This document shows, piece by piece, positions 1 through 19,770 of a DNA stretch of 45,173 bases (its first letter is position 1; each line of letters starts with the position of its first letter). The stretch is taken from the NCBI GenBank assembly GCA_018818885.1, contig JAHIRB010000024.1:1-45173 (forward strand). The letters are read 5' to 3'. Made by a program: the position numbers and the translations under genes. Source of the DNA: Patescibacteria group bacterium (GTDB lineage: Bacteria; Patescibacteriota; Patescibacteriia; Buchananbacterales; SURF-54). The notes below the pieces were generated by a model, which was given only the letters and a program-made list of their open reading frames with translations, made no database searches and had not been told where the DNA came from.

Positions 1-1271
1 CAAGCAAGTATTTCTCTTTTTTCATCCTTAGTTCCCTCGGTTAGTAAATACTTGGCGTATTTTTTAATGTCCACCTTGGGCATTTTTATTTTCTCTTGAT
101 CGTTTACTCTGGAAATTAACGTATTAAACTTTTTATACCTTTCCACTTCCTGCTTCATTTTTTTCAAGGTGCCAACTTCATCCAAGTTAACTTTGTCAAT
201 AACTTTTAGCAGTTCTGCAATTAATGTTTCTTCTCTGATGTAAGCTTCTTTGCAGTGGTAATCTTTAAACCGATTGCAGTGATAATATACATAGCGTCTA
301 ACCGAGCCGTCACTTCTAATCTTTTTAAATTTTTCTTCAGCTGTCACGCCTGATCCACACGATCCGCATTTGAGCATGTTAGCAAAATCAAACTCTTTAG
401 TTCCCGGCCTTGATTTTGGAGGTACCTCAAGCTGTATTTGGACCTCGTTAAATAATTCTTTATCAATCAACGCTTCGTGAGCACCTTTGTAAAATACTCC
501 TGAGCCTACTGGGTATTCGAATGTGCCATAGTAAAAATGGTTTTTCAAAATATTAAATATACTACTCAAGGCTACTTTCTTTCCGCTTCGAGTGGTAAAG
601 CCAGCTTCGTTAAGCCAGTTTTTCAATGCTCTACCGCTGTAACTTTGATAGGCAACCTTTTCAAACATCTGGGTAATCAACGGTGCTCTTTTGGGATCTA
701 AGTAGACTTTTCTTTCACCTTTTTTTTCGCCTACGCCATGAAGATAACCAATCGGGGGATAGCCTGGACGCCAGCCTTGTTCACATTTGGCTCGCAGTCC
801 ACGCTTCACATTGACCCCTTTGGCATCGTTTTCTAGTTTGGCAGTACTACATAAAATCATCAGTAAGAATTTTTCATTCGGCGAATTGCTAAAATTTTGA
901 CCGTAGGTTTTAACTTCCTTAATAACACCTTGATCCATTAAATCAATTATCTTACCCAAATCACCTGCATTTCTGGAAATCCTATCGCAGGACCACGAAA
1001 TTATTGCATCAAATTTACCATTTCTAATGTCTTCAATCATTTTGTTAAACACTGGCCTTTGTCCAGAATCCTTAGCTGAATGAGATTCTTGAAAAGCCTT
1101 GAGTATTTCAATATTTTCTCTTTTAGCTAATGCATTCATTTCATTGATTTGCGCTTGGATTGAAAGCTGTTGTAATTCGTCAGATTCAGTACTTTTTCTG
1201 CTATAGAGGCAGTACTTAAGAGGAGGGGAAACCTCTAAGTTTGCTTGATTCTGTGTCATTGTTTGTTCCAT
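1..1271 (-). CDS. Large serine recombinase (phage-type integrase), 3' end outside window
   Basis: A site-specific DNA recombinase that would integrate or excise the surrounding element. Reading leftward from the ATG at 1271, about 423 residues are visible and the frame runs off the window. The N-terminal resolvase domain has the Y-S-R-K-S motif, with Ser27 as likely nucleophile, and DRISRN. A Recombinase domain follows, then a zinc ribbon (CGSCG, later YYHC and HC) and a helical C-terminus containing MPKVDIKKYAKYLL. A second in-frame ATG at 1259 is possible. Its last visible 92 bases recur at 20128-20219. The family is certain; its substrate site is unknown. Confidence 0.93.
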   Translation of the reverse strand, partial: MEQTMTQNQANLEVSPPLKYCLYSRKSTESDELQQLSIQAQINEMNALAKRENIEILKAFQESHSAKDSGQRPVFNKMIEDIRNGKFDAIISWSCDRISRNAGDLGKIIDLMDQGVIKEVKTYGQNFSNSPNEKFLLMILCSTAKLENDAKGVNVKRGLRAKCEQGWRPGYPPIGYLHGVGEKKGERKVYLDPKRAPLITQMFEKVAYQSYSGRALKNWLNEAGFTTRSGKKVALSSIFNILKNHFYYGTFEYPVGSGVFYKGAHEALIDKELFNEVQIQLEVPPKSRPGTKEFDFANMLKCGSCGSGVTAEEKFKKIRSDGSVRRYVYYHCNRFKDYHCKEAYIREETLIAELLKVIDKVNLDEVGTLKKMKQEVERYKKFNTLISRVNDQEKIKMPKVDIKKYAKYLLTEGTKDEKREILA

Positions 1272-1444
1272 AGTTTTTATTATTAATTATTACTATGGAC
1301 ATTGATGACACACCGGGGGTAGGGCGTCCAGTCCCTAGGAGGTAGGTAAACTGTAGGTAACTAAACTTTCAAAATTTCTCTAAATTTGTTAATATAAAGG
1401 CACAATTTATAAGTCCTAAACTTCGAATTATCGGAGCATGGTGT
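1272..1444. promoter_or_regulatory. Intergenic region with tandem GTAGGTAA words and a promoter candidate
   Basis: Non-coding stretch between the recombinase start and the structured RNA. GTAGGTAA occurs twice (1342-1349 and 1353-1360), eleven bases apart, one helical turn, which fits an operator for the divergent recombinase. A plus-strand promoter candidate is TTGTTA at 1386-1391 with TATAAG at 1408-1413 (16-base spacer), which would start a transcript just ahead of the structured RNA. A GC-rich patch around 1303-1340 is unexplained. Only the motifs are seen; their function is inference. Confidence 0.4.
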
Positions 1445-1448
1445 AAAA

Positions 1449-1556
1449 ACTCACGAAGATACTGAACCCCGCGTTCAGCAACTCTTCGTGAGTCATATCG
1501 GGAAACTGGTATGTGGCCGCAAGGCCTAGCTAGCGCGGGGCTTTGTGATACTGAAT
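1449..1556 (+). ncRNA. Compact structured RNA with predicted pseudoknot, unassigned family
   Basis: Helices visible by eye: an 11-bp perfect outer stem (1449-1459 with 1483-1493); an inner 6-bp stem CTGAAC/GTTCAG (1462-1467 with 1473-1478); CATATC/GGTATG (1494-1499 with 1508-1513, one G-U); and GGCC-GCAA-GGCC (1515-1526) with a GNRA tetraloop. The inner-loop bases CCCCGCG (1467-1473) are fully complementary to CGCGGGG (1534-1540), a 7-bp pseudoknot. GATACTGAA occurs both inside (1458-1466) and after (1547-1555), so GTTCAG has two possible partners. It could be a leader of the gene at 1581 or a separate small RNA. I do not match it to a known riboswitch or ribozyme. Strand is chosen from the downstream gene. 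Confidence 0.6.
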
Positions 1557-1580: not shown

Positions 1581-2063
1581 ATGAATGCGGCAGAATTAAT
1601 CGTAAAACATTGGTATCAAAATAAAGGTTATTTTACAATGGAATCAGTTCGTCTAGCAAGAAATAAAGAATTGGATTTAGTTTTGGTTAAATTATCAGAA
1701 GATGGAAAAAAAATTGTAGACAAAATTCATGTTGAAGTACAAGTTGCCAATAATTTTGTAAACTTTGGAACACCTGCAGAACAAATGGCAAAAGAATATC
1801 ATCAGAAAAAATATATATCAGTAAAACCAGCAGTTGAAGAACTGCTTGGAACCGATTACAGAATGGTAGAGGTTAGAGGCAAAATGGCTTTAGGCTCAAA
1901 GGATATTAGAGACGAGTATATTAAATTACGAAAAAATATGGATGTTGAAGTAATCCCATTTGAAACAATACTAAAAGACGTACAGAATGATATGTTAACC
2001 AACATCCAGTCAGATCCAGTCATCCAGGCGATACAATTAGTTAAGTTCCAGTGTGCTGAGTGA
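1581..2063 (+). CDS. Small nuclease-like protein, unassigned
   Basis: A 160-residue protein; ATG 1581 is preferred over an upstream GTG at 1545 that lies beside the structured RNA. The N-terminal half reads like a restriction-endonuclease fold: an early helix with a glutamate (NAAELIVKHWY), then ARNKELDLVLVKL and HVEVQVANNF. This resembles the E...D...ExQ spacing of PD-(D/E)xK enzymes with Gln in place of the usual Lys. The C-terminal half is helical with no motif I recognise. It stands alone on the plus strand between the minus-strand recombinase and terminase genes, so the structured RNA just upstream is its only obvious partner. Nuclease assignment is inference. Confidence 0.55.
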   Translation: MNAAELIVKHWYQNKGYFTMESVRLARNKELDLVLVKLSEDGKKIVDKIHVEVQVANNFVNFGTPAEQMAKEYHQKKYISVKPAVEELLGTDYRMVEVRGKMALGSKDIRDEYIKLRKNMDVEVIPFETILKDVQNDMLTNIQSDPVIQAIQLVKFQCAE

Positions 2064-3920: not shown

Positions 3921-5255
3921 TTATTTAACCCTTTCTGCCTTAAGGCCTGTTAATTTTTCCCATCTATTTCTGATTACCTCAGAGTAGATAGGGGATTTTT
4001 CCATTAGATAGCATCGGCGTTTCATTTTTTCGGCGGCAATAAGAATACTGCCACTTCCGCCGAAAGGCTCCAATATCAGGTCATCGCGCTTAGTTAGCAC
4101 CTTAATGTAGGGTATAAGTATTTCCAAAGGCTTAGTACCAAAGATTATCCCTTGTCCTGAAGACTTTTCGTCTGAGGCCTTGAAATCTATGAAGTCAGTC
4201 GGACAAATCTTCTTACCTTTCCTGTAGCTCTCCCAATGCGGTGATCCGCTTATGGCATATAAGGCGGTTTCGTACTCGTTTTGTAGTATCTCTTCCTCTG
4301 CTTCTAGATTAAGCTCAACATCTTTATGCGAGGTACCGATCATTGCGATATCATGTTTACTGAAAAATTTATATTTACCAGCGAATCCTTGCGTGCGATT
4401 AGGTAGATGCCACACAATCATGTTTTTAATTTTCCAATATTTTTCCATTTCACCCCAAATCGTTCGGATATTTTTCCAGTTTTCGTAACAGATGATATGA
4501 AAGTCTTCTTTAGCAACTTTGGCAACATTTGCCATCCACTTTTCAGTGAAGTCATCTGGTAAAACATCTGTTTCTAGATATCGCCTGTCTCTTTTATGTC
4601 CAAATCCTGTAACTGCGTCACCTTTCTTTTTCTTGCCTTTTAAATAGTCAAGAATGTAGGGCGGGTCAGTCAGGCAAAAGTTAGCTTTTTCACCTTTCAT
4701 TAGTTTTAAGATGTCAGTCTCAATGGTGCTGTCTCCGCACATCAATTTTGATTCACCAAGCTGCCAAACATCACCCTTCTTGATTTCAATTTTTTGGATG
4801 TCTAATTTTTTTAATTCTTTTTCTAAGTCAAATTGTTCGGGTGTTTCGTCGATATCAAATATTTCATCAAGCATCTCACTATCAAATCCAGCATCAGCTA
4901 AAAACGACTCATCGAATTTAGCCAATAAATCTAGATCCCAGTCACCAGTTGCTTTGTTAAGTCTAATATTCAAATCTTGTTCTTTTTTGATGTCTGGAAT
5001 ATTTACGTAGATCACTGGCATTTCTTTGTAGTCTAGATTTTTTGCTATCTTTAGGCGGAAGTGTCCACCTATCACAATGTTTTCTCGACCTTTAGCACTA
5101 TTTACGACAAGAGGGTCAACTATACCGTAGAGATTTAGGCTTTCGGTTAGTTGCGATATTGCAGACTCACTCCACTTACGTGGGTTATATGCCGAAGCTT
5201 TAAGTTGCTTAATTGGCACCTGCACAATTTTTAATGTTTGAATGTCTTTTGACAT
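3921..5255 (-). CDS. ParB-like domain fused to beta-class DNA methyltransferase
   Basis: 444 residues. Residues 10-110 are a ParB/Srx-like domain (IKQLKASAYNPRKW, GHFRLKIAK). From about 165 on it is an amino-methyltransferase: motif IV is DPPY near residue 197, and motif I follows at the C-terminus (LEPFGGSGSILIAAEKM), the motif order of beta-class N6-adenine/N4-cytosine enzymes. Such fusions are common in prophages beside terminase genes and probably protect or mark phage DNA. It is the first gene of the MTase-terS-terL operon, read from a consensus promoter at 5491-5520 through a long leader with a large hairpin. No cognate restriction enzyme is adjacent on this strand. Confidence 0.88.
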   Translation of the reverse strand: MSKDIQTLKIVQVPIKQLKASAYNPRKWSESAISQLTESLNLYGIVDPLVVNSAKGRENIVIGGHFRLKIAKNLDYKEMPVIYVNIPDIKKEQDLNIRLNKATGDWDLDLLAKFDESFLADAGFDSEMLDEIFDIDETPEQFDLEKELKKLDIQKIEIKKGDVWQLGESKLMCGDSTIETDILKLMKGEKANFCLTDPPYILDYLKGKKKKGDAVTGFGHKRDRRYLETDVLPDDFTEKWMANVAKVAKEDFHIICYENWKNIRTIWGEMEKYWKIKNMIVWHLPNRTQGFAGKYKFFSKHDIAMIGTSHKDVELNLEAEEEILQNEYETALYAISGSPHWESYRKGKKICPTDFIDFKASDEKSSGQGIIFGTKPLEILIPYIKVLTKRDDLILEPFGGSGSILIAAEKMKRRCYLMEKSPIYSEVIRNRWEKLTGLKAERVK

Positions 5256-19697: not shown

Positions 19698-19770
19698 TCA
19701 GAGGTAGCTCAATTGGTAGAGCAGCTGACTGTTAATCAGCGGGTTGTGGGTTCGAGTCCCACCCTCTGAG
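19698..19770 (+). tRNA. tRNA-Asn (GTT)
   Basis: Cloverleaf seen by eye: acceptor TCAGAGG (19698-19704) with CCTCTGA (19763-19769), D-stem GCTC/GAGC, anticodon loop CTGTTAA with GTT, and T-arm GTGGG-TTCGAGT-CCCAC; discriminator G at 19770. No CCA is encoded. The acceptor helix continues perfectly outward for 12 more pairs, so arms 19686-19704 and 19763-19781 form a 19-bp inverted repeat, ending in a T6 run that may act as a terminator. The gene begins 12 bases after the GIY-YIG stop. Confidence 0.95.

Follow-up and report, generated by a model that had tools for sequence, protein, structure and literature searches.

Attenuators such as erm-type leaders and riboswitch expression platforms rely on mutually exclusive hairpins. 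Among described RNA families, LOOT (RF03000) was presented in the CaCoFold paper with about 43 base pairs, six helices and 28 cross-covariations (PMC7657543); it is named in an Rfam paper (PMC7779021), and a further one reports two extra covarying pairs for it (PMC11701678). Within the library searched, the family name occurred in these three papers alone, none of which states a function, and Rfam assigns LOOT the type sRNA gene.

We analysed an RNA encoded on the forward strand of the window, that is, the whole 45,173-nucleotide stretch of Patescibacteria DNA. RF03000 gave the sole Rfam match in the region, at 1413-1527 (+), with 74.4 bits against a gathering score of 46.4, and the window RNA aligns to the full model (1-121 of 121). 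An earlier note on this DNA had found no RNA family that it could name and had proposed an Rfam covariance search as a check of novelty; the significant match to LOOT overturns that claim, and the window RNA is a member of a known family without an explained role. Its helix order fits RF03000, with P1 (CCUAAAC...GCAUGG) followed by a long P2/P2b and by P3 and P4, each closed by a GNRA loop, and the outermost P1 pairs are mismatched in this copy.

LOOT was detected in 44 of 143 relatives of the window genome and in 83 of 380 genomes sampled across the phylum, compared with none of 14 control genomes. The titles of LOOT records are overwhelmingly those of Patescibacteria, with related metagenomes also represented. 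The window genome itself carries a second full LOOT elsewhere and a third locus with P1 alone (L034). For the class-wide comparisons we collected 150 distinct LOOT sequences, and 51 further loci were held out for replication.

Promoter and architecture of the window copy

The features of the locus, all within the window, are as follows.

3..1271, reverse strand: large serine recombinase/integrase, divergent from LOOT (Resolvase, Recombinase and Zn_ribbon_recom domains; phrog_95 integrase)
1367..1372, forward strand: predicted -35 box TTTCAA (LOOT alignment consensus TTGACA)
1387-1388, forward strand: TG of an extended -10, read from the window sequence
1390..1395, forward strand: predicted -10 box TAATAT (LOOT alignment consensus TATAAT)
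1402..1412, forward strand: conserved initially transcribed stretch ACAATTTATAA, with the predicted transcription start at 1402
1413..1443, forward strand: P1 hairpin with the conserved CCUAAAC / GCAUGG internal loop (RF03000 alignment; P1 pairs covary)
1449..1459, forward strand: P2 5' strand, termed X, ACTCACGAAGA (window sequence and fold)
1462..1478, forward strand: P2b hairpin (CUGAAC/GUUCAG; 1462-1467 with 1473-1478), about -6.2 kcal/mol
1467..1475, forward strand: T helix 5' strand, CCCCGCGUU, a pseudoknot strand inside the P2b loop
1483..1493, forward strand: P2 3' strand, termed X', TCTTCGTGAGT, pairing with 1449-1459
1494..1513, forward strand: P3 hairpin with a GAAA tetraloop (RF03000 alignment; covariation)
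1515..1526, forward strand: P4 hairpin with a GCAA tetraloop (RF03000 alignment)
1532..1540, forward strand: T helix 3' strand, AGCGCGGGG, beyond the Rfam model (de novo covariation, column pairs 59-66 x 128-135)
1541..1547, forward strand: U-rich tract 3' of T (CUUUGUG), terminator-like and weak in this copy
1581..2063, forward strand: orphan reading frame of 160 amino acids, downstream of LOOT

With a conserved ACAATT a short way 5' of P1 as the anchor, the LOOT alignment showed TTGACA at -35 to -30 and TATAAT at -12 to -7. This arrangement predicts a sigma-70-type promoter directly upstream of P1, with the A of ACAATT as the putative start. Of 149 LOOTs, 81 had the motif ACWAYT no more than 32 nt from P1, compared with 6 of 149 in a control region; among the held-out loci the counts were 34/51 and 0/51, respectively.

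The structures described by the earlier note at 1449-1556 were checked base by base and are present there. The predicted fold of this 108-nt stretch reaches -48.4 kcal/mol, compared with -29.4 +/- 3.5 for dinucleotide shuffles (z = -5.4, 0/200 as good). The bounds it gave cover the body of the RNA but miss the 5' part, namely P1 at 1413-1443 and the predicted start near 1402, and where it saw one GNRA tetraloop there are two (GAAA in P3, GCAA in P4). Its 7-bp loop-to-tail pairing, CCCCGCG x CGCGGGG, is exact and lengthens to 9 bp once G-U pairs are included (1467-1475 with 1532-1540).

The direct repeat GATACTGAA is found in the window sequence at 1458-1466 and 1547-1555. Only 2 of 150 LOOTs carry a repeat of at least 7 nt at this place, and the 9-nt copies are essentially unique to the window. 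A conserved switch built on GATACTGAA, as the earlier note had envisaged, was consequently rejected, the repeat being nearly confined to the window copy. The idea of two exclusive partners survives for the class in other forms: P2b, which is mutually exclusive with the full T helix, competes with the pseudoknot in most members, and at roughly one locus in four the rival of P2 is the start region of the following gene.

The loop-tail helix and the U-rich tract

A covariation scan was run on a plain MAFFT alignment of 126 LOOT sequences with no structure assumed. The loop-tail helix T was among the strongest signals, the pair 62-132 ranking second overall, and most T pairs were 96-99% canonical. 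Ten T column pairs were paired in 97% of cases, compared with 76% in column shuffles and 40-54% when the strands were slid. Compensatory changes in the pseudoknot, which the earlier note had hoped to see beside homologues of the 160-residue protein, are found across LOOTs in general, and without having been assumed. The mean T duplex energy was -24.8 kcal/mol, against -15.7 with loop and tail taken from different loci, and the mean for P2b was only -6.2 kcal/mol. Among the held-out loci, 43 of 51 had a T helix of at least 9 bp.

The RF03000 model stops before the T 3' strand and the U-rich tract. This strand is 74% G+C, and the 8 nt following it hold 4.9 U compared with a background of 2.3, the consensus 3' of T being CUUU(U/G)UGUUU. 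The layout is that of an intrinsic terminator, a G+C-rich helix with a U-rich tract directly 3' of it; T and its tract therefore look like an intrinsic terminator formed by a long-range pseudoknot. In the window copy the tract is interrupted (CUUUGUGUUU) and, as CUUUGUGAUA, weaker than that of the class, so that it may terminate transcription poorly or have a different role. The T helix, the promoter, the leader position and the start-region match described below are additions to the Rfam description of LOOT, and the extended structure would improve the Rfam model.

Downstream genes and their start regions

A same-strand gene usually starts 35-100 nt 3' of LOOT, and in 53 of 63 loci one lies within 100 nt of the Rfam end. 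No common family was found among the 63 downstream genes, nor did their comparison reveal a conserved downstream pathway of the kind expected for a ligand riboswitch; a conserved partner gene was rejected, the 63 genes being unrelated. Their products include type III and D12 methyltransferases, HtrA-like proteases, staphylococcal-type nucleases and zinc-ribbon membrane proteins, as well as others.

Searches of viral contigs and of 380 further genomes of the class found no homologue of the 160-aa protein encoded downstream of the window LOOT. A hint of a nuclease fold (UPF0102) lies below the cut-off (E = 0.07); the gene that the earlier note called nuclease-like is accordingly an orphan with a non-significant hint in that direction. 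The protein matched no ToxN/AbiQ/TenpN endoribonuclease toxin family, and AlphaFold run on the single sequence gave a pLDDT of 38.5, a model from which a PDB search is meaningless. These data bear on the possibility, also raised by the earlier note, that LOOT is a type III-like RNA antitoxin whose pseudoknot binds and silences a nuclease-like product of the next gene. The layout of promoter, pseudoknotted RNA, terminator and gene is alike, and the fold hint points the same way, but the unrelated downstream products (methyltransferases, HtrA-like proteases, nucleases and zinc-ribbon membrane proteins) fit it poorly, inspection of the window locus showed a single RNA unit with no tandem repeats, and the window protein lacks homologues. 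We regard this explanation as very improbable.

The window is a prophage, with the gene order integrase, LOOT, orphan gene, large terminase, small terminase; the earlier description of an RNA 5' of a gene, with a phage recombinase on one side and terminases beyond, is confirmed. In the window, L046 and L079 prophages, LOOT is divergent from closely related integrases (54-75% identity) and precedes different cargo genes. A gene with ParB_N and N6_N4 methyltransferase domains (3921-5255, reverse strand) adjoins the window terminases, and relatives of it occur near many LOOT loci. A tRNA-Asn (GTT) is located at 19698-19770 (+) inside the prophage-like window. Positions 1-139, the last 46 integrase codons, are 100% identical to G000:C26:2-139 at the start of contig C26, which reflects either an assembly overlap or a duplication of the attachment site.

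This setting could be that of a phage packaging RNA, or another phage-particle RNA, acting with terminase. Coordinates compared by hand place a LOOT within about 13 kb of 13 of 17 strong relatives of the window terminase in the 143 genomes. Strict co-occurrence with packaging genes is absent, however, as 44 of the 143 genomes have LOOT and only 16 have this terminase; many LOOTs accompany other mobile or accessory genes, and LOOT is linked to gene starts. Packaging, another role offered by the earlier note, does not suit a family most of whose host genomes lack a homologue of the window terminase, and we consider it very improbable.

The start region of the next gene matches the P2 strands at a subset of loci. 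X recurred there as an exact copy, 9 nt or longer, in 31 of 150 LOOTs, compared with 0.3% for mismatched loci, and in nearly all of the 31 loci it ends within 7 nt of an ATG. Similarly, X' and the start region of the gene that follows it are complementary in 33 of 150 LOOTs (controls, 1-1.5%), and the match recurred in 13 of the 51 held-out loci (control, 0.8%). Scores for X' against the downstream sequence exceed the 99th percentile of controls in 23% of loci and are control-like in the remainder, which separates LOOTs into two classes. The window copy, with a score of 12.5, at control level, is in the unmatched class. As three quarters of LOOTs, the window included, have no such match, a gate at the start region is not the shared function.

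Within the 33 matched loci, pairing of X' with the start averages -19.6 kcal/mol against -18.6 for P2 and is the stronger of the two in 23, from which we infer an evenly balanced anti-start switch. None of the 33 has a Shine-Dalgarno-like motif. At P2 G-U positions where the copy differs from X, the copy and X' form a Watson-Crick pair in every one of the 8 cases; considering that start regions are A-rich, this is supportive rather than conclusive. That the copy arose by simple duplication alone is disfavoured by the stronger X' pairing in 23 of 33 loci, although the copy could partly be a duplication relic.

In the genomes tested, X did not occur at other gene starts beyond about the chance number, being confined to its own locus. 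Candidate targets in trans were rejected both for the window X (CTCACGAAGA), whose 3 further occurrences in the genome are about what chance gives, and for a phage-type X (CCATTCGCATA), which in genomes bearing it matches P2 itself only. In the genomes tested, CCCAACCAC followed by ATG was seen only at LOOT or P1-only loci. In genome G708, five LOOTs show the match, each with the gene that it precedes. This genome (G708:C6, L265-L267) has seven LOOTs in all; four of them are clustered within about 46 kb, and every one of the four has a different X that fits the gene 3' of it.

These observations weigh on the possibility that LOOT works in trans as a small RNA in its own right, its 3' end lying at T and the U tract, with the next gene a mere neighbour. 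The own promoter and terminator-like end, the Rfam type and the lack of a conserved partner gene would all suit such an RNA. We nevertheless find it unlikely, given the frequency of closely spaced same-strand genes (53/63 loci), the complementarity to the neighbour's own start region in about a quarter of loci and the absence of X from other gene starts in the genomes tested.

The start-region copy could alternatively be a by-product of insertion if LOOT were a DNA- or RNA-guided mobility element, either a recombination site of the serine integrase or a guide RNA. An integrase relative lies in the fetched flanks (about 7 kb) of 31 of 62 loci, P1-only leaders (L034, L159) have X-like sequence directly before the start codon, and LOOT-gene pairs occur in tandem (L268). 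Yet such an integrase is missing from the flanks of half the loci, the promoter position, GNRA loops and U tract point to an RNA function, and X' pairs no less well with the copy than with X. We hold this explanation to be improbable.

The P1-only leader of the window's own genome (L034, G000:C25, 7704-7760) has AAAACCCCAACCAC-ACT-ATG immediately 3' of P1, and the gene that begins there encodes a type III methyltransferase. In full LOOTs related to it (L054, L066, L077 and L094), the same CCCAACCAC occurs twice, in P2 and ahead of the start, and L034 looks like a LOOT whose body was lost between repeats or was ancestrally absent. On an Uhrbacteria contig (L159, 600-4100), near-identical copies of promoter and P1 precede successive genes, two NYN-like and one Bro-N-like by inspection, followed by a full LOOT with a degenerate P2. 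At L268 (9600-10300), a tandem LOOT-gene-LOOT-gene arrangement encodes two related small proteins. P1-only leaders were rejected as a common type, amounting to a handful among about 110 pattern matches.

A candidate leader for mobile genes and its relation to known systems

We propose that LOOT acts in cis as the 5' attenuator leader of a mobile cargo gene, transcribed from a promoter of its own and using T as its terminator, and consider this slightly more probable than the contrary. The proposal draws on family membership, the promoter, T covariation, the U tract, co-orientation with the next gene, the complementarity of X' to the start and the linkage to prophages, all read from sequence; termination, switching, the cue and the direction of control we infer. 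Of the three roles suggested by the earlier note, a leader switch appears the best reading of an RNA that lies 5' of a gene and shows compensatory changes.

Transcription would begin at LOOT's own sigma-70 promoter, at about 1402, and the nascent RNA would fold into P1, P2/P2b, P3 and P4. The emerging 3' tail would then pair with the P2b loop to give the long G+C-rich T helix before the U-rich tract, and T, as a pseudoknotted intrinsic terminator, would keep the next gene low, with P2b or a factor bound to the leader opposing the full helix. A second gate would exist in about a quarter of LOOTs, where X' would leave P2 and pair at about equal energy with the start, blocking initiation in this matched class. 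Of the two gates, the window copy would have the first alone, and its U tract is weak. The purpose of the whole would be conditional expression of mobile cargo genes. As the leader serves many unrelated accessory genes, a general cue is likelier than a gene-specific metabolite, and LOOT most likely answers such a cue rather than a metabolite tied to a single gene; sequence analysis found neither sensor nor cue.

More tentatively, and with somewhat less than even confidence, we suggest that LOOT is a general-purpose, portable expression-control leader of Patescibacteria mobile genes, combining a promoter-linked 5' hairpin, a pseudoknotted terminator and, in a quarter of cases, an anti-start strand re-tuned to every new cargo gene. 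If so, it would be a modular RNA gate adapted gene by gene, with different leaders of one genome fitting their own gene only. The pseudoknot terminator, fixed promoter and locus-specific start pairing give an orphan family a testable hypothesis, namely that prophage genes and mobile cargo genes of Patescibacteria are controlled by RNA; the gene regulation of this very large group has received little study.

Compared with known systems, the window RNA shares with RF03000 its sequence, helices P1-P4 over the full model and a Patescibacteria host, whereas the Rfam model, filed as an sRNA, reaches neither the 3' strand of T nor the U-rich tract. Prophage morons resemble the window locus in placing a gene with its own promoter between integrase and terminase; they differ in that here related prophages (window, L046, L079) share the structured leader but carry different cargo. 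Type III toxin-antitoxin RNAs of the ToxI class are likewise pseudoknotted and have their own promoter and a terminator before the gene, but the window locus has no tandem RNA repeats, and LOOTs have no conserved downstream toxin gene. In attenuators of the erm type and in riboswitch platforms, as in LOOT, a terminator-like or start-region helix competes with an upstream leader helix. No leader peptide or ligand-specific gene set was found for LOOT, in contrast to these attenuators; its terminator helix is a long-range pseudoknot and its cargo genes are unrelated.
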